From contig CM060849.1 in NCBI GenBank assembly GCA_030737835.1, forward strand, positions 17,202,334-17,266,333: a stretch of 64,000 nt of DNA, written 5' to 3'. Below, piece after piece: positions 3,001 through 48,114 of the stretch. The notes under the pieces were generated by a model. That model made no database searches, was not told the DNA's origin, and saw only the letters and a list, made by a program, of their open reading frames with translations. Origin of the DNA: Acorus gramineus. Its lineage: Eukaryota > Streptophyta > Magnoliopsida > Acorales > Acoraceae. Position 1 is the stretch's first letter; each line of letters opens with the position of its first letter. The position numbers and the translations under genes were made by a program.

Positions 3001-4980
3001 AGCATTTTTAGTCCCGGAAAAATAAATATTTACAAAAATAGCCCCCCCACCTGAATATTTGCAAAAACTAGCCCCGATGGCATTTTACACTGGAGACGGA
3101 TTATATATAATCCGTCTCCAGTGTTGCAATTCTAAAAAAAAAACTAAGGCAATCCTAAAAAAAACAACTGGAGAGTCTCCAGTGTAAATCCATACCATTT
3201 ACACTGGAGACGGATTATATATAATCCGTCTCCATTGTAAATGGCCACTTACGGATTTTACACTGGAGACGGATTATATATAATCCGTCTCCAGTGTTGC
3301 AATCCTAAAAAAAACTAAGGCAATCATAAAAAAAACAACTGGAGACGGGTTATATATAACCCGTCTCCAGTGTAAATCCATACCATTTACACTGGAGACG
3401 GATTATATATAATCCGTCTCCATTGTAAATGGCCACTTACGGATTTTACACTGGAGACGGATTATATATAATCCGTCTCCAGTGTAAAATACCTGCGGGG
3501 CTAGTTTTTGCAAATATTCGGGTGGGGGGGCTATTTTTGCAAATTTTTAATTTTTGGGGGTTAAAAGTGCTAATTACCCATATTTATTTATAGCATCTGC
3601 AATACTGTCAATCACGAAGAATCAATGAAAACGAACCTCATATGATTCGGAGTCACTTCTGTTGGGGTGGACTTGAAAGTCGCCCCATGTTTCTTGTGCC
3701 CGACTCGGCTCACGTTCATCGACACCTCCTCACCTTCAGAGTTCGAGTACGTGAAAGAAACTGCACCGCATATTTACAGAATTAAATAAGAGTGCGCACT
3801 AGAAGACAAGGATAGGTGATGTCACTCAAGGACAACTAAAACAACTTATTCGCATATGCCGGTTAACAAAACTAGCGATGCCATAACGATACAACACTAA
3901 CGATTTCGATGTTGTCCGTTGTGACGTGGCAGATCCACGTCAGAAAGGAGGGATGGATTGGACGGACGTGATTACTTACATGAGTACTCCTCGATCATCG
4001 GACCGTCCACTGCTTCGCAGACGCAGAACAAGAGCGTTCGGAGGTACTTCTTCTGCAGCGCATCGTAGACGCCTAGAATTTTTTTTTTTCCCAAAAATAA
4101 AAAAAGAAAAAAAATGTAAATCAATAAATAAAAAGAGGTCCAGCAATCCTGACTGATCGATCGGTCGATCTTACCTTTCTCCATCCAATCGATGAGCCTC
4201 CGGGACTCGGGATCCATAGGCATCAGCTTCTTGATCTTCATTTCTGGCATTAAAAAAATACAAAATCGAAAAACATATGTAAAAAATATCTTCGAATTAT
4301 AGCGATTTCGAACGAATTGCGAGAAGAAAGGGAGGAAGAGAGATCGACCTAGGGCGGGAACAGATTTGTCGTTAAAATACTTCTCGGGGAAGAGTCCTCT
4401 GATGTAGCTTATATTGAAGATGGCGATGCGAAGAAGATTTCGCGTCTGTTCATTTGCAGAAATGAAAAAAAAAAAACAGAGAGTGAATTGAAGGACTGTT
4501 TTATCCGAGATCGAACAGATTCAGATCTGATGAGATCACAAAAAAATCGGTGAAATAGAGGTTGATCTGCAAAACTTCATGGCGAAGTCGTTCTCAAAAC
4601 AGTCTTACTTGAAATGTAAGAAAAATAGATGATTCAACTATGTTTCAGAGCTTTCAAATCTGACGAAGAAAGGGAAAAACTACTGAAATCGGATATTTCG
4701 AACCATCATTTTAAGAGATTCAAAGATCAGAAGCGCAAACACGCGATCATTTTAAGAGGTTCGGGTTTAAGCGAAAAACTACCAAACGAACAGAGGAGGA
4801 GTCTTTGAAAAGCTTTCAAAGCCTTAAAATCGCACGATCGGTGAAAAGAATTTATAAACTAAATTAAACAAAAATAGAGAGTACCAGAAGAAGAGAGTCC
4901 TGTTCAGTGATCTCCGCTTCTCTCACTCTCTGTGCGACCACCTGCAAAAGTGAGAAGAGCTTTCAGAGCACAAACACACA

Positions 4981-12540: not shown

Positions 12541-14673
12541 TCAATCATACTTGTCGGCTATCTCGAGGAGGCAATCGCACAGATTCTGAGGCTCGGACAA
12601 CATGACCATGTGATCGGCGGTTTCGATCTCCACCACGTCGTCCGGCGGGTTGTTCTGGATCATCCAACGCTGCATGCCCTCCGGGAATATATAGTCCCGA
12701 CCGCACACAACGAACACCCTCTTCACTGACCCGAATTTCTCCTCCGAAAACAGCCCCTCCTTCAGTTGAATCTCCGGGAAGAGCGCCGCCGGCGTCACCA
12801 ATGTCGTCGCCAGCTTCAAATCCTGCAAGGTTAGGATGACTTGACTGTGTGAGGAGTGTCACTTTCCTATTGGATTCAGTCTATATGAACTGTGCATTGT
12901 TGGGTACTTACGGCTAGTTAGATTTTTGTGATTGTTAATTCCTTATTAAAGAGTGACATCTATGTTAGATTTTTATGACAAAGGTAATGCAAAAACCTAG
13001 TAAAGCTATATAATCAAATCAATCATCAAACTATCAAACTAATATGAAAACACTGAAGGAGTTTGGTCCAACAAGTCTCAATAATAAAATGGTTTGTCTC
13101 TACATAAAAGATTAAAAATTCAAATGATTTTTTTATTGATGTATGACTAAAGTGTTATGAAGAAAAAAAAAAAGAATCTAAATTTTTTGTCAACTAAGAA
13201 ATAGGTCATTTAAGAGGGCCCGATACTAACATTCTATTCATAATTGTTATAAAATCTTACATATGTTAAACATATGAAATGACATATATTAGTTTTTAAT
13301 TGAAAACCGATAAGAACTAACAAATCTGACATCAAAGGTGGAGAAGTAAAGGGCAAGATCAGGAGACAAATTATCGTCGGGTACACTGTATGTGTGTCTA
13401 GTTTTAATGCATGTGATAAATCAATTGAGTTAAACGGATATCTAAATTCTATATTTACCTCAGAAGAGCAACATTGATACAAGTTCTTGGCCAAGTACTC
13501 CGGACCAAAGATCATACAAGTCGGAGGGTTGTCGGGCCCGTCGTCGAAGGTGAAGGTGGAGTCCATCATTGACTCAAACGGGTTCCTCTTAAAGAACTAC
13601 CATTCAAAATAAATCAAAACACAAAATCAATGAAGCATGTAAACTTTTGATGATGATGATGATGATGCATTTCACTTAAGGAGTGATAATATTAGGGGGA
13701 CATCATACCTCCCTCTCCATGAAAATATATCTATTTAATCATACAATTGTTTTTTAAAGGTGTCAAATAAGCTAGAAAAAGGTGAATATGCCCAAGATGA
13801 GTATAACTATGCAAGAATAGTTGAGAATAAACGGATATTAATATTATAATCTCCTCTTAAATTTGTTTATTCCACCCAATCTATTCCACATATATAAAGA
13901 TGACCGCATATTAAATAATTTATCATTACATGTAAGTCAAAATCATATTTTTACATTTTATAAACCATCATTCACATCTTAATAACTTTTTATTTAAATC
14001 TTATTCTTGATCAGCGAAACAACAAAAACTTTATTACTACTTTTTCCAATGAAAATGATTAAAAAAAATACAATCAAATAAAAAATGATGCATTCATTGG
14101 TATAACTATCCATGCATAAATAATTATCTATATTAAAATAACTTATATCATTACCTAAATGGGTTAGTAACATAATATTAAAGAAAATGATATGTATAGC
14201 ATCTTGTGTAGTCTCATTTGCAGTATATATTACGCTACCTAGTATATGAGGCTACAAAAAAGAATGAGTGTGTCAAACGTGGTGGTTAAATTTACCTCCA
14301 ATGAAATGTGGACCATAGGCTCATGGAGACAAGGCATGATGGCCGAGGCGTAAACCGCGGCGGAGACCTTCTCCGGGAACCTCTCCATCGCAAGAGACAG
14401 TCCGATCCCTCCGAAGCTGTGACCGACGAGGATGACGCGCTCTTCCCCGGGAAGGGAAGCCAAGACCTCCATGAGCGGACCCACATATTCGTCGATGGAC
14501 CGGACCTCGTCGACCCGCTTCGGATGGACGCCGCACCCGGCGAGGTCGGGGGCCGTGACGCGGTGACCGAGTGACTCGAGCAGGGTCGAGAGCCTGTACC
14601 AGCACCACGCGCCGTGGCCTCCGCCGTGGACCAGTACGAAGTGGTGGTTCTTCTTGTTCTTCTCTCCCGCCAT
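12541..14673 (-). CDS. Methylesterase of the MES/SABP2 family (alpha/beta hydrolase)
   Basis: A serine hydrolase related to SABP2 and Arabidopsis MES proteins, which remove methyl groups from methyl salicylate, methyl jasmonate or methyl-IAA. The substrate here cannot be told from sequence. Minus-strand exons are 14296-14673, 13459-13596 and 12541-12822, giving 798 nt and 265 residues, the family's usual length. The oxyanion-hole motif HGGGHGAWCW is near residue 16. The nucleophile elbow GHSFGG has Ser86, the acid is Asp215 (VVCGRD) and the base is His243 (ETADHM), so the triad is complete. No signal peptide is seen. The exon 2 acceptor was placed at 13597/13596 (TAG) because it restores the family sequence FFKRNPFES. 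Confidence 0.93.
12823..13458. other. Methylesterase intron 2
   Basis: AT-rich intron with no recognised internal gene or element. Confidence 0.6.
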
Positions 14674-14741
14674 TTTTTTTATTTTTTTGTTGGGTTTGGT
14701 TTGGTTTGGTTTGCTTGTGTTGGTGCTGGTGATTGTGTTTT

Positions 14742-14751
14742 GGATTTATAG
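14742..14751 (-). promoter_or_regulatory. Probable TATA box of the methylesterase gene
   Basis: The minus strand reads CTATAAATCC about 70 bases upstream of the start codon. The call rests on motif and spacing only. Confidence 0.5.
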
Positions 14752-16221: not shown

Positions 16222-19151
16222 GCCTCTCGGCGTGGGCCAAACGCCTCGCTTTGAAGCTGAGGAGACTGAAGAGATGCCTCTCGGCGTGGAGCCGGCTAGC
16301 CAGGCGCAAGAAGGTGGAAGCAAAGTCAAAGCCAGCGGAGATCATTCGGCTCGAGGAAATTGAATGGCGCCAAAAATCCAAAGCGCTATGGCTCCACGCA
16401 GGTGACGGTAACACTAAATTCTTTCACAAATTCGCTAACCAAAAGGAGAAAGTTGAACAAGATTGATAAAATCATGGTGGGCGAGGAGGTGCTGACCGAG
16501 GAGGCCACGATTGTGGACAGCGTCGTCAACCACTTCCAAGCCCAGTTCAGGAAGGATAGGTCGTGGAAACCGTCCTGGGCGGACCGCTCCCTCCCGAGGC
16601 TTACGGAGCTGGAGTCCCATCAATTAGAAGCTCCTTTCTCGCTCGAGGAGATTGGACGTGCAGTTTTTAGCAGTGACGGTGACAAGTCCCCGGGGCCAGA
16701 CGGTTTGGCCTTGCTTTCTCCCAACGCTTCTGGAATATTGTGCAGAATGATGTGTGCTGCATGTTCAAAGACTTCCAGCGCCTAGGCCAGGGGATGGGTT
16801 GCCTGAATGCTTCCCTCTTTGTGCTTATTCCGTAGAAAGAGGGAGCAGAGTCGGTCTCCGATTACCGGCCAATTTGCCTTGTCAACGACGGTTATATGCT
16901 TGTCGCTAAGGTGATGGCGAGGCGTCTCCGAGAGGTTTGCGGTGGGTTGGTCGATGAAAATCAATCCGCGTTTCTACCTGGACGAAGCCTACAGGAAGGA
17001 TACGCGGTGGGGCAGGAACTAATTTTGAGTTTTACACAAGGACAAGCGCAGTGGGGCCATTCTCAAACTAGATTTCTCTAAAGCTTACGATCATGTTGAC
17101 TGGTCATTCCTCTTTCAAGTGCTCAGACTGCACGGCTTCCCCCAGGCGTGGATTAAGCTGGTCGCCAACTGCATCTCCACAGCGAGAGCATCTGTGGCGA
17201 TCAATGGCGTGTCACACGGATACTTCCCCATTGGTAGAGGCCTGCGTCAGGGGGACCCTCTATCCCCTCTCCTCTTCTCGCTTGTGGCGAATGCGCTTAG
17301 TCGAATGTGCGGTAAGGCAGCTAACGCGGGATGGATTGAGGGAATAGCTTGCTCGAGGGGCGGCAGGCCCATCACGCACCTGCAGTACGCCGATGACACG
17401 TTGGTATTCGCGACTCCATCTGTGGATGTCTTGGCAGGGATCAGATTCATACTGCATTGCTTCGCATTGGTGTCTGGGCTCTCTATCAACTGGTCGAAGA
17501 GCACTTTGTTGACTGTAAACGTGGACCCGTCATTGGCAGCTGACCTTGCGAGCATTTTGGAGTGCCAAACATCGACCTTCCCTTCCAAGCATCTCGGCCT
17601 CCCATTGGTTCACCACAGACTGCTTCAATCCGACTGGCTCCCTCTGATTGACAGGATTCAGAAGAGGCTCGAATGATGGCAAAACAGGTCGCTTAGTTTG
17701 GGGGGGAAATTTACCCTGCTTAGAGCTGTCATTACCAATCTCCCTCTCTTCTTCCTGTCCAGGTTCCGCGTGCTGGCGGGTATCCTGAAGAAGCTTGAAG
17801 CGATCCGGTGCCGGTTCTTTTACAGAATGGGTCAAAGAAGGAGGCTAACAGCCCCTGCTTGATCAAATGGGCTTTGCTATGTCAACCCCGAGAGAAAGGG
17901 GGCTTGGGTATCCTTGATTTGAAGTCGATGAATAATGCTCTTCTCTCCAAATGGCTTTGGAAATGGGCCACGAAGGAGTCGTCATTGTGGGTGAGGGTGA
18001 TGCATGAGAGATACGGCGGCAGAAACCCATCGTCCCTCTTTCCACACATCGTGCCAAAGATGTCATTTTTATGCAAGGGGTGGCTAAGTTTAGTAGAAGG
18101 TTTTGCTCCCGAAGTCGGATGGAAACTCGGCAATGGCGCTTGTATTAGATTTTGGCGCGACCTTCCCCAACCTATTCAGTGTGGCAGTGGATAGTGAGGA
18201 GCACGTGCGGGACGTTTGGCAGCACGCAGGGGAGGGAGGTGATTGGCGCATCCAGTTACGAAGGATGGTGTCCGACGTCCAGGTCGGGGAGCTGGCTACA
18301 TTACTCCACAGCCTCCCTCCGCTCGGGCCCGTGACTCAAAGCCAGGATTCGATGACGTGGGGCACGCCTCCTCTCCCGACTTACAGCGTCAAAAAGGGTT
18401 ACAAAATGTGGTCGCGGTTTGTGGTGGACAACCCAGCGATGGCACAGCGCACGCCGACTCTCTGGAGCTGGAAACTCCCGTACAAGATCAAGTTGTTCGT
18501 CTGGTTGGCTCTCCAGGGCCGCATTGTCACCAAGGTTTACAGGGCGAAATGGAGGCCATCGGACCCCACTGATTGCGCAATCTGCGGTGCGGCACCGGAG
18601 TCCATAGAGCACCTGATGCTTGTTTGCCCAACCTCGGTCAGATTGTGGGACAGACTCGGGTCGGCTGCAGATGTTAGATGCCATTGCCAGAACCTGGAAG
18701 AGCTATGGGAGATCATGGCTGCTCACCTCCCTCTTGGGGACAAGTGTATCCAGAATGACTTTCACCGCATGATCATACCAGCAGGAATGTGGACCATTTG
18801 GCGCGCGAGGAACGACCTCATCTTCAAAGGACAGCCGGTCTATCTGGAGAACCTCTGGATTGATGTCCTTTGGCTGATGAAGGACTGGGCCAGCATCATG
18901 CTTGGCACGAGGCTGGCGTGGAAGCCCGGGGAGAAATTTAGTCTCTTGGCATGACGTGAATGGTATGGCCCCGAAGTGGTGGGTGTTTTGGCGCTCGGGG
19001 CACACCTCGTGTTTTGGGAAGTTTCTTCTTCCCCGCCAATTCCCTCACATGTAGTTTAAGCTTACATTTATGCATTTCCTCTAATCTCCCCCCAAATCAG
19101 TCCATTTGTAATTCATGTTATCGATTATGAATGAACTATCATTTTCAAAAA
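16222..19151 (+). mobile_element. 5'-truncated, inactivated LINE (non-LTR retrotransposon)
   Basis: Reverse-transcriptase motifs occur in order: KSPGPDGL (near 16680), DYRPICLVND (16858), ENQSAFLPGRSLQ (16958), LDFSKAYDHVDW (17070), GLRQGDPLSPLLFS (17240) and YADDTLVFA (17388). The zf-RVT tail follows (KLPYKIKLFVWLA, then CAICGAAPESIEHLMLVCP, about 18470-18640). The reading frame shifts several times and has in-frame stops, for example near 16465, 16833 and 17676, so no full protein can be made. The endonuclease part is missing. ATATTCTATTATAGAT occurs at 16206-16221 and again at 19152-19167, a perfect 16-bp target duplication. The GC-rich composition contrasts with the AT-rich surroundings. 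Confidence 0.95.
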
Positions 19152-19881: not shown

Positions 19882-22800
19882 TTATGTTTGAGACTGCTCC
19901 AACTTGGCTCTTATCTTCTTCTCGATCACAGACTTTTTGGTCTCCAACTTAAATACCCTTTCAGTTACCAACGTATTTTGAAGGACCTCACTGAGATTGT
20001 GGTTCTCAGTGAGGTGTTTACACGGGCCAGAGAGTAACTCTCGCAATATATTGTTCATGTGGATTTCCACGGTCTTCTTCACTTCCGTGCTATCACACCC
20101 ACCGATCTTCTGAGAGAATGTCTTTAATTCTGACTCTAATATCCTATTTGCATATTTATTAAGATTGTGGACTGTAGCAGAAGTCAACAACTGATTTTGA
20201 TCCCTCCGGACCTCAAACTTCTTAACCGCTTCCATGATAATAGTCTGAGCTTTCGTGGCCTGCCTTAACTGTTCTTCCTCATCGAATTCCACTTCTTTGT
20301 GATCATTGACTTCAGAGACCGCCCCCGATGAGATACTTAGGTCATCATGGACCCGCCTCCCGGCCATGATTGCATCCTCAAACAGCTCTCTGATATTTTC
20401 TCCAAAGCCTTTGAGACCACGACAGACATTGACAACCTCTTCGACTTTTGATTGAATCTGTGATTCTCCCGGAATCAGGGATTCAAGTCCTGTTGAAACT
20501 TCAAATAGATGTTGACTGGCATCACTGTCGCGCAGCAAAAAGAGGTGTTGCCGGATCTCAGACGAGGAAACCCCACTTGCCTGTGGAGGAAAAAGGCAGA
20601 TGGTTATTTGATAGGTTTGATGAGGATTCACATATTCAAATCAATTAGATGACTATTTAAATACCTTAGCCATCCATTCAGTCACTTCTTTGACTCCACG
20701 GTGCCAAGACAATGCCACCACGTATACTTCCGTTCCGTTGCTAGTACTGAGTACAGCAGCCTCCTCAATATGATTCAAGTTGCACAGCTCTTTAATGGCA
20801 CGTGGCCATCCCGCTTCAGGGACTGCAAGCTTTTCAAGCATCTCAACTGGTGCTGTTCGAAAATTGACCCCTATAACTGCAATGCAGCTCTTTTCTCTTG
20901 AATATCCTGATGTAAAGATGAACAGAATCGTTAAAAGATTGTCTGTTTGGAATTTTTTTCCTCATGGGTAAGCATAGGAATTACTTAACATGATGTATTG
21001 CAATTTAAAAGGATAAAGCAACACAGAACAAAGACATGTTTCCTGTGCAATAGAATTATATTTTTGTTTCCAACTGTTGGAAGATTTGACCAAACAGAAA
21101 ACCTCACAAAAAGACAGGTCTAGCCACCATATTCATCCACATTTTCTAATTCACCAAATGTGAAAGAAAAAAAAATCAAGCAGCACTATGGATCACATTA
21201 CCATGATAAACATATAAAGGACATGAAGTCTCAGGAAATATTCACAACAAAGACAATTTCACAGTAAGTTGGAACAATAGATTCACAAAATTAGTAACCA
21301 TAATAGATGAGGATAATTTCTAGAAAAAAAAATGATGGCAAAGAAGAATAGAGATCATTCGAAGTGGGGACTCACAGCTGGCGGCAGTCATCTTGAGAAG
21401 CATGAGAGTAGGGCAGCTCGAGGCATCAATCAAGATGAACCTCATTGATCCATCACAGAGACTCTTGCATTTTGGGGTTGAAAAAAAAGGCCCCTCTCTC
21501 AAAGCACTTCCTTGGACTCTGCTGTGGATCTAATGGATAACCAGATACATGGTAACAAACAATGCAAGCGGAGGAGATGTCAAAATCTTAAAGAACAAAT
21601 CCTCCAATTTCAACCCTCCCCCCCAAACAAAAAAAACAAAAAAGAAAAAAATTTGCTTCCTGCAACCATCCATGAACTGAGTCCCTAGTAAAACATGATT
21701 GAACAGGGGTCTCTCCAAAGAGAGGTTTTACAGGTTCTCTCTCTCATCAAACCTATTCAATTTATTAAGGCAGTGAATTGACCGCAACTAAGTAGGAGCT
21801 ATTAAGAGGATGGGTAGAAATGACTGAATGGAGATTTCTAAAAATGTCTCAGTTGCAGGATGCTTCTGTAATTTTAAGGGCCATTGATAATTTCCTATTT
21901 CATACCAACACAAGATAATTAAATTGGAGAGGCTTTAATTGATTATTCATTTCTTAGCAAAGAAACACTTTTTCATCAAAATTAGCTCCTTTATCTTTGT
22001 TATCATGTAATAAAGAGTATAAGATTTGGTTACTTCATGAGCCAAAACTTATCACATCCACTTAATTTCATTTAAACAAATTTGTCTATCTACATAAAAA
22101 AATTCAATTAATTATACAACTTATGTCGTGTTTCTGGCTTTTTCTTCTTTAAAATCCAAAATACTCTGTGTTCTTTATTACTAATCCTTTTCCAGCAAAT
22201 ATGATTTCCAGTTTCTCGACTGCTACATAAATAAAACAGATGAACAAGCTTCGCAACACAACGATTCAGACACTACATTGGAGGGTGCATTGGGTAACAA
22301 ACTAACAAGAACAATCACACGTGATGCAATGTATGGAAATCATATTCTTTTATGTCAAAAAAAAAAGAAAAAAGAAGCAAACAAACTTTAGAATAGAAAA
22401 GGGGCTTCCTTTCCCCTCTTTTTATAGCAAATTCTACTACTTATACGATTCAATAATGATAAAATTTTTATCAAGCAACACAAATTTCAGTGAAACATAT
22501 TGCACCCACGTATCATAAAAAGTGGCCGCATTATTAGACTCCGGTCCTAAAAGTTCCTCTCATGAAATTCATTCGTTCCACTCAAAGAGGGAACCTATTG
22601 ATCAGCCACCAAAACATCAATTTCGATGTTCATGATTACTGTGAGAATCTCCCCAAGTACAATTCAAAATTTTCATTGTTATTACAAGTTTAAGATTTCA
22701 AACAGAGAATTCAATAAATCAAACCATCTACGGAGATCAACCAAGGGAGAAACTCACGATTGGCCGGCGACGACTTGAGAAGCTCGAGCGCGAGACGACC

Positions 22801-22965
22801 CGAGGCCTTCCTCGAGAGGTTCCCCTCCAAAACACCATTGCGACCTAATCCGACCTCGCATTTAAGGTTCGTGGCGGCAAATGCCACTCTCTGGAAGCGC
22901 CTCCTCCGACTCCGATCGACGGATCTGGCGGGAAACCCGACTAGATGGGGAGAAATCGATGTCAT
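19882..22965 (-). CDS. Glutamyl-tRNA reductase-like protein without NADPH domain or catalytic Cys
   Basis: A paralog of plant HEMA, the plastid enzyme that reduces glutamyl-tRNA in the first committed step of chlorophyll and heme synthesis. Minus-strand exons are 22758-22965, 20665-20906 and 19882-20580, giving 1149 nt and 382 residues; plant GluTR is around 540. Residues 1-60 look like a plastid transit peptide (basic, Ser/Arg-rich). [19 protein letters not shown] and the catalytic fold follow. The catalytic motif reads [11 protein letters not shown], with Ser125 where the active-site Cys belongs and Gly127 for Arg. [12 protein letters not shown] is kept. At residues 236-245 GAVS passes straight into [10 protein letters not shown], which starts the C-terminal dimerization region (QATKAQTII to the end). 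The central Rossmann NADPH-binding domain is therefore absent, within a single exon. The open frame and consensus splice sites argue against a simple pseudogene. Enzyme activity is unlikely; the role is unknown. Confidence 0.92.
20907..22757. other. Intron 1 of the HEMA paralog
   Basis: An AT-rich intron of 1,851 bp. Apart from the exon-1 relic at 21373-21480, nothing else is recognised. Confidence 0.6.
21373..21480 (-). pseudogene. Decayed second copy of exon 1 inside the HEMA-paralog intron
   Basis: The minus strand here reads [17 protein letters not shown] followed by GTGAGT. It aligns with the end of real exon 1 ([17 protein letters not shown], then GTGAGT); CTTCTCAAG and GCCTCG blocks match and the donor is in the same place. 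Splicing it to exon 2 would create a TGA at the junction (AGC T|GA), so it cannot serve as a coding first exon. Similarity fades about 70 bp upstream of the donor. Confidence 0.65.
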
Positions 22966-25900
22966 GGGGAACAGAGACCGCAAAGCGTACCAAACGCCGA
23001 AGCTGCGCAGTATAAGAGGGGGGAGACTGAAACCCTAATCAAACCTTCCCCCTCTTGGTCTCTGGACGATCGATCACATTGAGTCGATGTGGATCATCGA
23101 CGGTCAAAGATTGAAACTGCGCGGAAGAGATCGAACTGAGCGTCTATTGTTGACCATTCTCGATATACGCGTGTTTCGGCTTTGATGTGATGGAGGGGAT
23201 TCTGCACGTATAAAGCGTTTTCATATCAGGGATATTGCCGTCCAAAATAATATTTTTTTATTATAGGTTTTAAATGTGGATCGGATTACTCGAACTTGAT
23301 AGGATAAACTCGATTTTTATATATGTTGGGTTATAAAAATTAGATTCGAATTTAAGTTGAGTAAAAAATCAGGTTAAATTTAAATTGACATCAATTCAAA
23401 ACAGTAATACGTACCTATATGATATTCTAAATGGATCATGTGTGATTAATATTTGATTCTTTACTCTAAATTTTTATCTTTGGATCACAATATATTTCTT
23501 CTGTGGAGTTAAATTTTTTTTTTGTGAGTGATTGAAATTTATGAAATATGTGTGTGCGTGTGTGTTTTTTTTTTTTTGTTAAAAATTAGGCTTGAAAATC
23601 AAGTTCTGTGAGTTGGTTCGAGTTCCACGGGTTGGATTTGAATTAGAGGTTGAAATTCAAGTTATTAGATCGGGTTAGAATTGAACACCTTAAACTTCGG
23701 GTTAGGTCAACCTGAACCCAACTTGTCCGAGTTACATCCCTAATTTTTTTGAAAACCCTATTAATATATGTTTTTCATAGATCTATGGAATATATATATG
23801 GTTTGACATATTTTTTAAAAAATTAATTCCACCTCGGAGAATCCTTGAATTAATTTCATGTCTCTAAAACATTTGTATTTATTTTTAGGTCCTCCAGTTA
23901 ATTAGGGTATTATTTTTAAGTCATTCCATCTAATATGGGTTATCTTTTATCTTTTTTTATTTATTTTGCTTTTGTTTTTATATTTTTAACAATGTAAACA
24001 GATACGTTAACAGTGTACAAACTTGTTAACAGTATACATGGACGGTGAAAAACTAGAAGGTAAAAATTAAATATGTAACCGTGAATTTTTAGATAAAAGG
24101 ATAAAAAATAATATACAATGGGTCCGAGAATTTAAAAAAATAAATTCAAATATTTAAAGAATCTAAAAATGATTCAGAATTAATTTCCTCTTATTTTTTC
24201 TTTAAATCTACCGAAGTGTTTTTTAAATGAATTGATTACATATGAAAATCATTAAAATTCGTTTATATATTCTCGAACCAAAAAAATGATAAGATCAAAT
24301 AATATATTATTTTAAGGGGGCAATGATGGAATTAAAAATATGTTTGACTTTAATTTCCAGATATGATTATATATTTGACATCTTCATCCATATCCATTCG
24401 ATTTTAACGGATCTCCCTCCAAAAATCAACCATAAAAAAACTAGTTCTCTCTCTCTCATTTAAATAACCCGGTAAACAATATTCTATATAATTTTAAGGT
24501 TCTTCATCTTTTATTTTTAATTATTTTTTTTTATTATAATAGGTGAATTGATTAAGGCATTCATGGAGAACAGAGTACCCTTTCAACTACATGAATTCGA
24601 GGTAAAATGAAAAAAACCTAGAAGTAGTTTTGTATATTTTATTTTGTGAATATTTTTTTGGCATAAAAATAAAAATGCTTTAAGACTTTGATTGATTAGA
24701 TTTTTCATCTCAAAAAAATTGATTAGTGCATGCAAGAGTTAGCTTCTCTTTAAGATGTTCACAGATTTTTTTTTCAACAAAAGAAATATGTTCAATCAAT
24801 TTTTCTTCAAATTTCATATACATTTTTTTAAAATTTTAATTAGATAGGTTTCTACTTGATTTTACATGTACATATTATTTATATAGAAGATCTGCTTGTT
24901 AAAGTATTTTTCTACTAATAACACAATGCATATAACCTAGGATTTTTCTTAATGGTAGGGATTATTTAGAATGTTCAATTAAATTAAACTTATTAATATT
25001 ATAATTTTTGGATGTTAAATTATATTATAATATTTTAAATCTAATTTTTTTGTCACTAGGATGACTTGAAATTATGTTGATATGGTATGTGTTTTCAAAA
25101 TTGGCATAAAGGAATCTTTGATGGATTTTTTGTTTTTCTTTTGTGGTAAAAGTTTTATCCACATGCTAAAACACATATAATAATAATTTAGGTTATATAC
25201 ACATAAATAACATAATGATAATGATAAAAATCTAATAATTATTAAAAAAAATCAACCTGATTTATGCATTTAAATGTGGAGCTTAAATAAAGGTATCTCA
25301 ACCAAATCATTTTTGTGCATTTAATATAAGTTAATAGAGTTTACTATGTAGTTTTAAATAAAAGGAATATATTATAATGAAAAAATAATCCACATGTATT
25401 TGAAAGTCTTTAAAGGGAAATATACACAATACCATTTGATAACTATAATTATCTAAAAATTATTTAAAATGTGCGTTAAAGTTATAGCTTCAATTTTTCT
25501 TTTGATTTAAGTTCACTTTGTAATTCAATGAGAATTGGTTAATGTTAAATATTATTCACTAGCTCTTTCAAATATTGAAATGAATATGGATATGATGTGA
25601 TTTGAAATGTAAGTTACAAAAACACCCATGATTAATTGGTATAATAGATAGATTTTGTGATTTATTCCTCATTTAATTATATATAATATATTGTATTTAT
25701 ATTAAATGTATTAGATTTTACATATCAATGTATTGATTCTTTGTTACATTGTATTAGTAAAACATGTTATCTATAAAATAATATATCATGTGTCATGCAT
25801 TGTATATATTAAATAATTATCAACCTTTCCTATCATTTTATATATATATATATCTATCTAACCATGAAGACTAGTTAATATCTCTTAAATAAAAAAATTT

Positions 25901-26209
25901 GGTGAGATAAGAATATCAATGCCAACTTCTTGAATAGTCAACTAACATCTCCTTAACATATTCGATCTTCTAAATATATTTTTTTAATAATATTGGGGAG
26001 ATAACATCTAAAGAATATCCAAATATAACTACTTGTATCATGGAGATATTATCTTATCTAGGTAAGTAATTTTATATTTATTAACAAGATTTGTTTGTTA
26101 CTATTGTTATTAAGGATGTTGTTGAATTTTTTTTTCCTAATCTTTTGTTACATGCTTCTAATATTTACACAGAGAAAATTAGAAGAAAAAAAATAGCAAA
26201 AGTGAAAAA
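22966..26209. other. Intergenic spacer, HEMA paralog to F-box gene
   Basis: Up to about 23200 this is the leader and promoter of the HEMA paralog. The remainder is very AT-rich, with one degenerate inverted-repeat element (23265-23742). No supported gene. Confidence 0.5.
23265..23742. mobile_element. Degenerate hAT-like element
   Basis: The right end, reversed, begins TAGGGATGTAACTCGGAC and continues into GGGTTnGGGTT-type sequence. The left end (TAGGTTTTAAATGTGGATCGG) resembles it weakly. It has the same style as the better preserved element at 46913-47360, and no target duplication is clear. Confidence 0.4.
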
Positions 26210-27397
26210 ATGGAGGCATCGATGGCTGACTGGTCACAACTTCCGAGAGAGCTGGTGGTGTTGATTGCGAGCCGCATAGAGCACCTCTCCGACTACATCC
26301 GTTTCTGCGCGGTTTGCAAGTGGTGGCTATCGATCACGGCCCAAGAGAATCCCCGCCCTCGTCTACGTGAATCTCCATGGCTCATGTTGCCAGCCAAAAA
26401 CAACAATTATTCTCACCAACTCTATAGTCCATTAATGGAAGACAGGTTCCACCCCATCAAGCAAGAAGAGAAAGAGGAGACATGCCTTCTGGCGTTGGGG
26501 TCCTCGCCAGACGGTTGGGTATGCATGGTCGACCAGAAAGGTAATATCTATCTATTCAACCCTTTCTCTGGTTCCCGGTTCGCACTCCCTCCTTTTTTGG
26601 TCAAAAAATATTCCAACAACGTTTCCAACCAAGGCCTCCGCGGCCTTCCCTGTGAGCATCTTATCAAGGTGGCCTGGACTCCAGACCCCACCAACTCCGG
26701 CCCAAAATCCGTCGTCATCTCGACAACAAAAAGATTGGCCGTCTGGCGCCATTCGAAGCAAGAACAGTACTGGACGACGTTCTGGTCCGAGTATGCTCCC
26801 TTCAGCGACATAGTCTACCATGAGGAGGAGGACATGTTTTTCATGATGAGCCACTTTGGATGTTTGATGACCTTCGATCTCTACAGCCTAATTAAGGTGG
26901 CGTGTCATCTCCCTCGCCCGCCCCGCGACATCTCTAAAATGTTAATTGTTTCAAAGGAGCTCAGATACTACCTGGCGATTAGAGGAGGGCCGTCGTCGTC
27001 GTCGTCGTCACTCGTGTTAGTGGTGAGAGAGATAGAAAAGAGGAAGACGAAGGGGTTCAAGGTGTTTGAGCTCAACAGGAGAAGGATGAGATGGGAACCT
27101 AAAGAGAGCTTGGAGGATGATGGAATGTTGTTCCTGGGATTGAATAGCTCCACATACCACTTCATGACTGGTGGTGGTGGAAGCAAATGCAAGGGAAACC
27201 GCATCTACTTCACTGATGACAGTATAGGTCGATCGTCTTATGATGATAATCTCAATAATTTGGGTCGACATGACATGGGTGTTTTCAGTCTGGATGATGG
27301 GAGCTTTGAATGGAATCATTGTAGGAAGTGGAAGGGGCCTCATCCCATATGGATCTTTCCCAATTGGCGGCTCCCCTCCATCGATTTTGAAATGTAG
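26210..27397 (+). CDS. F-box protein with DUF295 domain (SKIP23-like)
   Basis: A 395-residue intronless protein. The F-box at about residues 8-45 (WSQLPRELVVLIASRIEHLS, then FCAVCKWW) would bind a SKP1 protein and make this the substrate receptor of an SCF ubiquitin ligase. The rest has the layout of the plant DUF295 family: NPFSGSRFALPPF in the middle and a C-terminal block with GNRIYFTDDS and HDMGVFSLDDGSFE. No repeats of kelch type are seen. The second ATG five codons in (MADW) could also start translation. The substrate is unknown. The gene is flanked by long AT-rich spacers and is coded in a more GC-rich style than its surroundings. Confidence 0.9.
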   Translation: MEASMADWSQLPRELVVLIASRIEHLSDYIRFCAVCKWWLSITAQENPRPRLRESPWLMLPAKNNNYSHQLYSPLMEDRFHPIKQEEKEETCLLALGSSPDGWVCMVDQKGNIYLFNPFSGSRFALPPFLVKKYSNNVSNQGLRGLPCEHLIKVAWTPDPTNSGPKSVVISTTKRLAVWRHSKQEQYWTTFWSEYAPFSDIVYHEEEDMFFMMSHFGCLMTFDLYSLIKVACHLPRPPRDISKMLIVSKELRYYLAIRGGPSSSSSSLVLVVREIEKRKTKGFKVFELNRRRMRWEPKESLEDDGMLFLGLNSSTYHFMTGGGGSKCKGNRIYFTDDSIGRSSYDDNLNNLGRHDMGVFSLDDGSFEWNHCRKWKGPHPIWIFPNWRLPSIDFEM

Positions 27398-29227: not shown

Positions 29228-29456
29228 GTGCGTTTGATCGCGCGATTGCAAAACTGATTATGTAGGAATCTGGATTTTAAAACTGATTCGGCAAGAAGCT
29301 CACTTTCTCAGTTTTTTGAAATTGTAGCTTTTGGGCATTGTTTGTTTGAAATCTGTGTGCAGGAAGCTGCTATAATAAAACTGTTTAGTTGTACGATTGT
29401 AAACGTAGCTTCCTGCAATCGTAAACGTTGCGCAATCACGTAACCAAACACACGCT
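29228..29456. mobile_element. Small inverted-repeat MITE, Tourist/hAT style
   Basis: The left end is GGGTGCGTTTGATC followed by GCGCGATTGC. The right end, reversed, is GCGTGTGTTTGGTTACGTGATTGC. TTA flanks both sides, which would fit a 3-bp PIF/Harbinger-type target site. The ends are imperfect and the superfamily is uncertain. Confidence 0.55.
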
Positions 29457-31300
29457 TAGAGCAACATTTAAAGTCAAAATCAATTCTTAAAATGTATTTT
29501 GAAATGAATGCAGATTTAAAGTCTGAATGAAACAAATAATTAATAATAAAAAAAGGAACGATCCATTCACATATTCAATGGAAAGTGTTAAAAAGTCATA
29601 AAAGGATAGGTTTGATTTTATTTTTAAATTTCAACATTTTTAATCATTCTCAACCTCTCGTGACAAACAGATTCTCGTTTCGTTCATGCACATCCATCCA
29701 AAACATAGTCATCCAATTGTCACCTTCATTTTCCATTGAATTGAAAAAAAAAATGAGTCCAAAGGCTTATATCCTAGGAATAAGGTACACTTTACCTTCG
29801 TTCAAACCCTAGGTAATGAAATTTTATCCGCATTCCATTTTGGATTTGTGTTAATTAGTTGGGTCATATCTTTTTAGTATTAACAATGGTCTAAGGGTAT
29901 TAAATCTTAGACCATTGTCTAATGGTCTAAGGGTATTATATATTGGTATTAAATTAAATAGGCCATAAGTCCATGATGGGTCGACTTATTAGACCTTTTA
30001 AATTAAATGTAAAGGGTGTTGTTCCATTTTATTGTTTTATATTATTCATTAGTACTATTTACTCACTATTTAAAGAGTTATATTTGTTAAAAAAAATTTT
30101 CCATGTTTTACCAATGAGTTTATTTATATATTTTATATTATATAAAAATATATATCTTATTAGATATTGTATATTATTTAAAAAAAAATATAAACTGTAT
30201 TTGATGATAGGAATGGATTTGAGTCTAACACAATAATATAATGTGGCATGTGAGGTTTAAAAACTTACCCCCACGTAGATGGTTATGGAGTTACACACAT
30301 ACAAGTATATTAATGTGTGTTCAGTCATTAATTAGATATTTTCATTAATTATATGTTTAATATATAAAAACCACCGGTGGATATGCATTAATACAGTCGC
30401 ACATTCATTAATGTATGTTACTATGTTTTCATTAAAATATAATATATTTCAAAAGCTAAAACACAACTATTGCCAAAAAGTTAAAATACGACTCAGTCCA
30501 TATAATATAAAATAATAAAACTCCAGGGCCGGAATTCGTAGCTCGACAGGAGAATTTGAAATAAACAATTCATGAATTCCAATTCCAACCTTTATTTAAC
30601 AAAGAAAAAAAAAATTTAAATGTAACTTCGTTAAAAGGATAATATTATATTCAGCCAATTTTTCAATTTTAATTTTTAACCTACATGTGTTTTATATTTT
30701 TTTAAAAATAATATACCTCATCTAATGAATTACATATTTTATAAAAAATAAAACATATAATTTAAAGAATTATATGAATGTATTTATAAAAAATATAAAT
30801 TTTTTTTATCAATTCATATATTTTATTAAAATAAATATATATTTTAATAAGTTTTTATCATGTATGAAATTAAAATATAAACAGATATAACAACACTCTT
30901 CATTGAAACTACTCCGGTTTGCCTAGTCCACTCCGTACTGATGGACCAATTCTCCGCCGGATGATCAATGGGCCCATCACCCTATAAGTCCACGGCGTCT
31001 GTCAACGCGTTTGGTAGACTCACATGGATTAAAAAAATACCAACCAATATTACAACAACGCCATCAACGCCTTCAATGCCACGTCAATACGGACACCGTA
31101 AACGGACATTTAGAGTGTGCGCGGTCCGTTTTGATCTTTAAACGTCTGTCTCTGACAACGAGACCGCGTCGATTAATCATTCAATAAACTTAAAATTAAA
31201 AAATAAACCGAATATAGAACCCAAAAAAAACAAAAACAAAAACAAAAAATAACGTTCGAAAAAAAAAAGAAAAAAAAAAAAAGAGGGACGCGAACATCGG
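29457..31300. other. AT-rich spacer before the MAPKKK gene
   Basis: Mostly AT-rich with A- and T-runs. The last part (about 30900-31300) has mixed composition and is probably the MAPKKK promoter and leader. Reading frames here are short and low-complexity; none is supported. Confidence 0.5.
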
Positions 31301-44459: not shown

Positions 44460-44575
44460 CTGTCAAGATCTAGCCCTAACACACTCTATCAAATAAACTA
44501 TTTAAATATATAAAAAAAAAACCCCAAACTAATCACAACCCACACAGATTTGCCTTTGCAAGACCCCCCACAAGA

Positions 44576-45316
44576 ATGGCGTCCTCCTCCTCCTCCTCAT
44601 CAAACTCCCCCTGCGCGGCGTGCAAGTTCCTGCGACGCAAGTGCACGCAAGGGTGCGTGTTCGCCCCATACTTTCCGCCGGACCAACCCCAGAAGTTCGC
44701 GAACGTGCACCGCGTCTTCGGCGCCAGCAACGTCTCCAAGCTCCTCCAGGAGCTCCCCCAGACCCAAAGAGAAGACACCGTGAACTCCCTCGCTTACGAG
44801 GCCGAGGCCCGTCTCCGCGACCCCGTCTACGGCTGCGTCGGCTACATTTCCCTCCTCCAACAGAAGCTCCGACTCATCCAGAACGACCTCCTCCTCGCAA
44901 AGAAGGAACTCGCATCCTACATCGGCACCACCCAAACCCAGATCCCTTACGCGTACTACGGTCTGGGTTTGGGTCAGGCGCCGCTGCCGCAGCAGCAGCA
45001 GCAGCAGATGTTGGTGGAGGCGCAGATGGTGAGACAGCAGGAGATGTGGAGATATGAACAGCAGGAGGAGATGGGGAGGTTTGGGGGGTTTGAAGGGCAG
45101 GTTGTTGGGTACCATGAACATGTTGGGGAAGGTGGGGGTGGTGGTGAGGGGGTTGGGTTGGCTTTGGTTCCTTTTGATAGCTTGTTTTCGATTCAGCAGC
45201 CGCAGCAGCAACAGGAGGAGCAGCAGCAGAGGGAGAGTGAGCGGCGGTTGCCGACGGCGGCGCAGAGGGCGGGGAGCAGTGAAGAGGTCAGGAGCGCCGC
45301 CCCGCCGTCTTGTTGA
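44576..45316 (+). CDS. LOB-domain transcription factor, class I (LBD)
   Basis: A nuclear DNA-binding protein of the plant-specific LOB/AS2 family, which acts in lateral organ boundaries and leaf patterning; 246 residues with no intron in the coding part. The zinc-finger-like C block has Cys13, Cys16, Cys23 and Cys27 (CX2CX6CX3C). The GAS block contains FGASNVSKLLQEL, with DPVYGCVGYIS and then the leucine-zipper-like L-spaced helix (LLQQKLRLIQNDLLLAKKEL) that marks class I. The C-terminal 130 residues are rich in Gln and Gly and low in complexity. Sequence is near LBD36/ASL1 and AS2; the exact ortholog cannot be fixed by eye. The first exon region is GC-rich against an AT-rich background. Confidence 0.94.
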   Translation: MASSSSSSSNSPCAACKFLRRKCTQGCVFAPYFPPDQPQKFANVHRVFGASNVSKLLQELPQTQREDTVNSLAYEAEARLRDPVYGCVGYISLLQQKLRLIQNDLLLAKKELASYIGTTQTQIPYAYYGLGLGQAPLPQQQQQQMLVEAQMVRQQEMWRYEQQEEMGRFGGFEGQVVGYHEHVGEGGGGGEGVGLALVPFDSLFSIQQPQQQQEEQQQRESERRLPTAAQRAGSSEEVRSAAPPSC

Positions 45317-46265: not shown

Positions 46266-46912
46266 ACTGTATCAAGACTCCAATCCTTATTCAAACCTAT
46301 ACCCAAATTTTACTTTAAATTTGAGTAAAAGCTTGATTTGATATGATGTGTTTCCAAACCATCATTTTGTGTTTTACTCAAATCTTTTAAAAAATTCATA
46401 TCTGCTTCTAATTATTTTTTATAAACATTTTCAAAGTCTTTCCCTAAACATTTTTACTATTCAATTTTTATTCTCTATTTAAATTTAAAAATTATAATCA
46501 TCCAATTTTTTTAAAAAAGATAAAAAATAATCTTTTTTTTATTTGAATAAAAATAAGAAGTTAAAAAACAAATAGTAAGACTTAAGAAAGAATGCTATTT
46601 TATTTTTGGGTTTCAAGAGATGGTAAAAATTTTGGGGGGTGGGAAGACATTTAATATAATTCAACTAAAGGTGGAGTTGAAAGGAAAAAAAAATGTCACA
46701 TTGGAAGAAAATGTGGAAATAAAGGAAAAAAAGAGACGTTGAAAATTTGATTAAAGATTTGAGTCTTCCCTGATTTGAGTAAAGATTTGTGTAAAAACTT
46801 AATTTGGTATGGATATGGGTAATTGGTTGAAAAGAGTTTTGAGTGACTTTTACTCAAATTTAAATTTGGGTAAAGATTTGGGTATATAATTGGAGATACT
46901 CTTACCCATATC

Positions 46913-47360
46913 TAGAGTTGCAACTTGGGTCGGGTTGAACCCGATTTTTATATGGGTTGAGTTGACCAAATCGAATTCGGGTTCGCTAATTCGGGTTGAC
47001 TCACAAATCATGTTGGGTTCGGGTTGGCATCACTCACAACCCGACTCAACCCCAACTCGTAAACTAATAGTTAAAAAAAAATCATGGCCGTTCATTCTGT
47101 AGCTTCTAATCTGGGTAGTCCAAATTTTAGGTAAACCTAGTTAATCTTACGGGTTGGGTCGAGTTGATTTATTTAATTTGCACATCATGTTAAAAATTCA
47201 GGTTGGATCGGGTTGGTCCAATTCGAGTTGGGTTGGGTTAATTACGAGTTGGGTTCGGATTGATCCAATTCGAGTTGAAAATCGGGTTGAGTAATTTGCA
47301 ATTCGGGTTGAGTTCGGGTTGGGGTCAACCCGAACCCAACCCACCCGAGTTGCAGCCCTA
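46913..47360. mobile_element. hAT-like non-autonomous element with GGGTTGGGTTC-rich body
   Basis: A 448-bp element. Left end TAGAGTTGCAACTTGGGT; the right end reversed is TAGGGCTGCAACTCGGGT. The flanks CCCATATC (46905-46912) and CCTATATC (47361-47368) form an 8-bp target site with one change. The body is full of CGGGTTG/CAACCCG motifs, giving strong self-pairing. No coding. Confidence 0.88.
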
Positions 47361-47431
47361 CCTATATCAAATTAAGTTTTTACTCAATCTTTTACATAAA
47401 TCAAAGAAAACTCAAACATTTATCTAAATTT

Positions 47432-47695
47432 GTGAGAGGTCCCAAGTTCAATTCTCAGAATGCTCCTCCCTCTTTATTTTATTATCAGTCCCCAGTGGTC
47501 ATAGCACAACGGTTCAGGGCTTAACGGTGTTACCGATAGGTCCTGGATTCGAGTCTTGGCGCTGACTTATCCACCTGTTTGTTGGCAATTATTTGAAAGA
47601 ATTTTTCTTGAGACCGGGGCAAACAGGCGGAGGTAGCCTTCCCAGCTCGACCGTAAAGTCGGTCACATAGGGTCCCTCCAATATCAATAAAAAAA
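47432..47695 (+). mobile_element. tRNA-derived SINE, copy 2, possibly composite
   Basis: AAACATTTATCTAAATTT (47414-47431) and AAACATTTACCTAAATTT (47696-47713) are an 18-bp target duplication with one mismatch. A first part (47432-47489) contains a B-box-like AAGTTCAATTC. A second part from about 47490 matches SINE copy 1 (GTGGTCATAGCACAACGG, then GGTCCTGGATTCGAGTC) and ends in an A-tract. Because the repeats enclose both parts, it looks like a composite or longer SINE of which copy 1 keeps only the second part. Confidence 0.85.
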
Positions 47696-48114
47696 AAACA
47701 TTTACCTAAATTTTAAAATACTGTTTTTCTTTTTCAACTCTACATTTTTTTTTTAAGATACGAGTAAAACACAAAGTGATGGTTGAAGATATCATATCAA
47801 ATTAAGCTTTTACTCTAATTTTTAGTAATATTTGAGTATAGATTTGAGTTAGGCTGGAGATGGCGTTAAGGATAATGTTAGGTATAGTCTAAAATACAGT
47901 CCTAACATATTTAAATTATTTAGAAATAATAAATATCATCTAATTAATTAAATATATCTCTCTATTTCAAATTGAATAGACTTATTTTTAACAAATGTAA
48001 AAAAAAATTAACGACCTATGAGACTATATTTAAAAATGTAAGAAAGACGGTGAGTAACAATGCCCTCATAATAATACAGATACAGAGGATGTGTGAATTT
48101 TTTTTGTTGGTGTT

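Follow-up and report, generated by a model that had tools for sequence, protein, structure and literature searches.

Glutamyl-tRNA reductase (GluTR) is the main control point in the synthesis of chlorophyll and heme, and a gene in the 64,000-nucleotide stretch of Acorus gramineus DNA analysed here (the window) raises the question of why a copy of this enzyme should stay open and spliceable after losing the parts needed for catalysis. The gene lies on the minus strand (22965-19882) and has three exons, which encode a product of 382 amino acids. Exon 1 (22758..22965) carries the ATG, the only one in its stop-to-stop frame (22711..23034), a segment resembling a transit peptide, as judged by eye from the sequence, and the beginning of the RED segment. 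Intron 1 (20907..22757), of the GT..AG type and in phase 1, interrupts ANRY within its Arg codon. Exon 2 (20665..20906) completes RED, a segment that reads SALEMLKSSAADRYTKERSSIAVVG in HEMA, and encodes the first of the two halves of the catalytic fold. Intron 2 (20581..20664), with 84 nt, GT..AG ends and phase 0, contains an in-frame TAG and an in-frame TGA, and exon 3 (19882..20580) encodes the second half of the catalytic fold, the spinal helix and the dimerisation helices, and ends in TAA. Of 18 open splice combinations, this model is the only one that yields 382 residues, and both its introns match those of the canonical HEMA gene in position and phase. The open frame over three exons with phase-correct splicing, claimed in the original prediction, was thus confirmed. 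The start is intact, the stop occupies a position homologous to that of HEMA, and no internal stop, frameshift or damaged splice site was found, so that the gene bears none of these marks of a pseudogene.

The product retains two of the domains of GluTR and lacks the third. Pfam located GlutR_N at residues 81-229 (E 5.1e-38) and GlutR_dimer at residues 260-361 (E 9.7e-11), and gave no match to the shikimate/NADPH domain anywhere in the 382 residues; a weak Prismane match (E 0.055) fell under the cut-off. Arabidopsis GluTR1 (PDB 4n7r) aligned with the paralog as two separate segments (chain residues 5-190 and 322-471) that skip the NADPH domain, and 106 of 167 paralog residues (76-242) were identical to it. 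Compared with the canonical HEMA, 141 codons are absent between GAVS (20314..20325) and the NVDNLKEV of HEMA, a deletion that is in frame, comprises a whole number of codons and falls at a domain boundary. The absence of a Rossmann domain proposed earlier is therefore upheld by Pfam, by the two-piece alignment and by the comparison with HEMA. The junction was also said to lie within one exon, and GAVS, at 20325, is indeed inside exon 3. EVNDHKEV, taken in the original prediction for the start of the C-terminal helices, does follow GAVS directly, but its correct identity is the linker to the spinal helix, homologous to NVDNLKEV. A tblastn search of the whole 64-kb window for a relic of the missing domain returned four chance-level matches (E 1.7 to 9.0).

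The active-site motif is altered as had been predicted: STSNG (20748-20734) replaces STCNR, changing Cys to Ser and Arg to Gly. Both residues are invariant in the 77 of 77 aligned bacterial GluTR proteins, a set in which one of the two search patterns demanded S/C and R/G at the motif positions; 80 loci had been fetched and three (L003, L045 and L052), with fewer than 350 amino acids, were dropped. At the positions conserved in at least 90% of these bacterial proteins the paralog keeps 19 of 26 residues, H174, G188, E189 and N126 among them, and the losses are C125S, R127G, D183E, L193Q, Q195K, K225R and T231L (paralog numbering). The cysteines that HEMA carries in EKCC, in LRCDG and in the NADPH domain are missing from exon 3 of the paralog (19882-20580); three further conserved cysteines have been reported in angiosperm GluTRs, which may or may not coincide with these (PMC3778395, in the part drawn on here). 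From the features of an active GluTR, the GlutR_N fold and the dimerisation domain are present, as Pfam domain matches only, and the catalytic Cys and Arg of STCNR and the NADPH-binding domain are absent. Because the NADPH domain is lacking and Cys and Arg are replaced by Ser and Gly, the predicted product should not be able to serve as a GluTR reductase.

Searches with GlutR_N and GlutR_dimer over the 398.6-Mb assembly, in each of which all three first-look candidates were scored, found two GluTR genes in the genome, the paralog and one canonical HEMA, against the three HEMA genes reported for Arabidopsis (PMC4726326). The canonical gene lies about 0.9 Mb from the paralog on the same contig and encodes 550 residues in three exons (1285-1561, 3392-3633 and 3752-4882 of its locus, L084), with STCNR and a full NADPH domain. 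Positions and phases of the introns are identical in both genes, which points to a duplication at the DNA level and rules out a retroposed copy; by the RED segment and the intron positions that it has in common with HEMA, the paralog belongs by descent to the plant-type GluTR lineage. The duplication of a larger block was rejected as well, after comparing 401 open frames of the window (at least 50 amino acids) with an 85.5-kb region that surrounds HEMA. The frames that matched were GluTR exons 2 and 3, two opposite-strand frames overlapping them, and repeat-like frames at 29.3, 46.9-47.4 and 47.5-47.7 kb of the window; exon 1 gave no match at the threshold used. Beyond the GluTR gene both regions therefore share repeat-like stretches only. 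In a protein tree the paralog grouped with its own HEMA (support 66.8/86; AU p 0.80, 0.21 and 0.21), with 10 of the 77 bacterial proteins included, 8 of them untrimmed, and the tree does not distinguish a duplication before the split from Arabidopsis from one after it. No relatives of the paralog were found in viral contigs.

Elsewhere in the window, remains of a LINE-type retrotransposon (16300-18954, plus strand) lie just downstream of the GluTR paralog, with an RVT_1 reverse transcriptase frame at 17029-17676 and a zf-RVT frame at 18097-18954. The stretches 29258-29574 and 46853-47712, which also occur around the HEMA locus (L089, L092, L090 and L094), are probably repeats or pieces of transposons. 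An open single-exon frame of 404 residues (26183-27397, plus strand) matches the KIB1-4 beta-propeller and, weakly, an F-box-like domain; a frame for a LOB-domain transcription factor is found at 44480-45316 (plus strand), and a partial alpha/beta hydrolase gene at 14239-14745 (minus strand), its fold assigned by search and its methylesterase-like character by eye.

Whether the copy has been maintained was addressed by several measures of coding constraint. Pairwise maximum likelihood over 324 mature codons of paralog and HEMA, computed with our own codon-model script, gave dN/dS 0.231 (dN 0.351, dS 1.518), a value that departs from 1 (2dlnL 72.6) and that averages both lineages with dS near saturation. 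By regions, omega was 0.156 in exon 2 and 0.332 in the catalytic part of exon 3; in the transit segment (0.413, 2dlnL 2.9) it was indistinguishable from 1, and the value of the C-part (0.115) is untrustworthy since its dS of 4.8 is saturated. Judged by a dS of about 1.5, the duplicate is old yet intact. When changes were polarised with Arabidopsis GluTR1, 108 amino-acid changes were specific to the paralog and 12 to HEMA, a count that leaves out 23 gap columns and 22 columns in which all three sequences differ; 21 columns in which Arabidopsis alone differs were assigned to no lineage. Branch lengths in the protein tree agree in direction (0.51 for the paralog, 0.056 for HEMA). The mature protein carries four paralog-specific indels (141, 1, 2 and 4 residues), all of whole codons as read from a protein alignment, which would hide compensating frameshifts; another gap, of one residue near GGCD, does not enter this list, Arabidopsis being also one residue shorter than HEMA at that place.

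Neutral evolution was simulated from the HEMA codons until 108 missense changes had accumulated, replacing an earlier simulation that started from the paralog (probability of no stop with the ATG kept 0.011-0.016, with seven invariant losses). A mean of 4.9 stops was produced and the probability of none was 0.008; with an assumed 0.05-0.1 frameshift indels per substitution, the probability of an intact gene fell to 1e-6 or less. Shorter neutral periods are better tolerated: after 60 missense changes the probability of no stop, taken alone, was 0.057, and after 20 that of an intact gene was 0.09 or 0.02 with assumed frameshift rates of 0.05 and 0.1. By regions, the probability of no stop was 0.44 for RED plus exon 2, 0.25 for the catalytic part of exon 3 and 0.09 for the C-part, each being weak evidence singly. 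The kind of replacement is also informative. In the N-part the changes were more conservative than random one-step missense changes (p 0.008), as were all changes together (p 0.017), and those of the C-part did not exceed one-step neutral changes in conservativeness (p 0.36) but were more conservative than two-step ones (p 0.0055). Taken together, these sequence comparisons favour a gene that was kept coding through most of its existence, rather than a pseudogene that has been dead ever since the duplication.

The constraint is not uniform along the protein. Of the positions with the same residue in HEMA and Arabidopsis, the paralog changed 19 of 83 (23%) in RED plus exon 2, 31 of 78 (40%) in the catalytic part of exon 3 and 58 of 103 (56%) in the C-part, a gradient with a chi-square p of 2e-5. 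Four-fold sites differ evenly over the same regions (18/35, 17/30 and 12/21), so that it is constraint, and not mutation rate, that seems to vary. Constraint is thus highest from RED to the middle of the catalytic fold, the stretch that contains the dead active site. This constraint does not follow the bacterial pattern: by entropy, 7 of the 30 near-invariant bacterial sites were changed as against 50 of 161 N-part sites overall, both counts being confined to positions that HEMA and Arabidopsis share, and variability in bacteria was not higher at the 45 changed sites than at the 106 unchanged ones (p 0.44). Near-invariant sites have been struck almost as often as the others, which suggests that little is left of the former catalytic constraint; relaxed selection also fits changes that do not avoid the sites conserved in bacteria.

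A plausible reading of this pattern, which we hold tentatively, is that the paralog is a non-catalytic HEMA duplicate that would act by engaging the partners that the working GluTR uses. The competing account that deserves most attention is a late pseudogene, that is, a gene that evolved under coding constraint for long and then died, with the deletion of the domain and the catalytic losses perhaps as steps of its decay. Its fast branch, the changes at near-invariant bacterial sites and a C-part that the one-step BLOSUM test finds near unconstrained are as such a history would leave them, and death could have preceded as many as some 60 of the 108 changes if stops alone are counted, or about 20 under the assumed frameshift rates; Arabidopsis HEMA3, too, has been described as a seeming pseudogene (PMC10967246, in the part drawn on). 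However, decay would have had to spare every splice site and the frame, leave the start intact and the stop at its homologous position, remove a domain in frame at its boundary and preserve an uneven constraint along the protein, and on this balance the late pseudogene appears somewhat unlikely. An artefact of assembly or sequencing at the deletion or at the motif is highly improbable. The sequence does rest on a single assembly, but the canonical HEMA was assembled separately, the missing stretch consists of whole codons at a domain boundary, and paralog and HEMA differ at 47 of 86 mature four-fold sites, which makes a collapse or mis-join of both genes implausible.

Two other accounts give the protein a different task. 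Through its dimer end it could form heterodimers with active GluTR or sequester FLU, and so alter dark repression. GlutR_dimer is present, the C-terminus is retained to its end, and FLU has been reported to bind the dimerisation domain of GluTR (PMC4726326); but it is precisely the C-part that is least constrained, with more than half of its comparable sites changed and a 4-residue loss inside, and we regard this account as unlikely. Alternatively, the fold might still bind and act on glutamyl-tRNA without NADPH, as a residual hydrolase or a tRNA-binding protein. The conserved positions that are kept, with H174, G188, E189 and N126, would suit such a role, against which stand the loss of the nucleophile Cys and of the motif Arg, the changes Q195K and T231L, and the report that in GluTRs the thioester is made by that very Cys (PMC3778395); a role of this kind is very improbable.

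For the tentatively preferred reading, a non-catalytic duplicate that occupies GluTR partners, the distribution of constraint suggests which partners these would be. In Arabidopsis GBP, Clp selectors and a chaperone compete at RED, just ahead of the catalytic domain, and GBP shields GluTR and is freed by heme (PMC6597238, PMC11969407 and PMC7966870, in the parts drawn on). One exon of a GBP-like gene was found in the Acorus genome (E 1.1e-26 to chain C of 4n7r), and from this and from the retention of RED we infer a competition for GBP and/or the Clp selectors. The paralog would occupy those proteins that bind RED and might thereby alter how stable the active GluTR is or how it binds GBP; titration of FLU, or heterodimers with active GluTR, would come second. 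With constraint peaking in RED plus exon 2 and falling to its minimum at the C-terminal end, the evidence speaks more for the GBP/Clp side than for FLU or dimerisation. The original prediction of a pseudoenzyme regulator, which allowed for GluTR, FLU, GBP or tRNA-Glu as partners, is thus supported in part, as to the absent reductase parts and the signs of coding constraint, and the distribution of constraint shifts the likely partner to the GBP/Clp side. It has been suggested that the esterase activity of GluTR is prevented by favouring NADPH accommodation (PMC4726326). On our reading, a GluTR without its Rossmann domain but with an intact Cys might cleave glutamyl-tRNA to no purpose by esterase activity, and the loss of Cys and Arg would then have disarmed it. 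The full proposal, in which RED together with the early half of the fold serves as a decoy that adjusts stability and heme feedback by way of GBP and the Clp selectors while being disarmed as an esterase, is rather unlikely as a whole and is offered as a speculation.

If the reading is right, a retained non-catalytic GluTR paralog would mean that the enzyme is also controlled through an inactive version of itself, and it would offer a naturally occurring case in which binding by RED and the catalytic fold is uncoupled from catalysis and from the binding of NADPH. To our knowledge none of the GluTR regulators named in the papers drawn on here (GBP, FLU, the Clp factors, cpSRP43 and TTP1) is a GluTR relative. 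Among the literature matches listed, drawn from open-licence papers, no title or abstract opening described a plant GluTR that lacks its NADPH domain. With plant GluTR (HEMA1/GluTR1, PDB 4n7r and 5che) the paralog has in common RED, the GlutR_N fold and the spinal and dimer helices, and it differs in the absence of the NADPH domain, in the changes of Cys to Ser and Arg to Gly and in the loss of other near-invariant residues. GBP and FLU exert post-translational control on GluTR, the kind of role proposed here; they belong to protein families other than GluTR, whereas the paralog is a GluTR relative and would act by competition. Arabidopsis HEMA3, compared by its published description and not by its sequence, is likewise a diverged extra HEMA copy (PMC10967246); in the part of PMC3778395 drawn on, however, the catalytic Cys is conserved across all aligned GluTRs and HEMA3 is an exception only at other cysteines, whereas in the Acorus paralog it is the catalytic Cys itself that is replaced.
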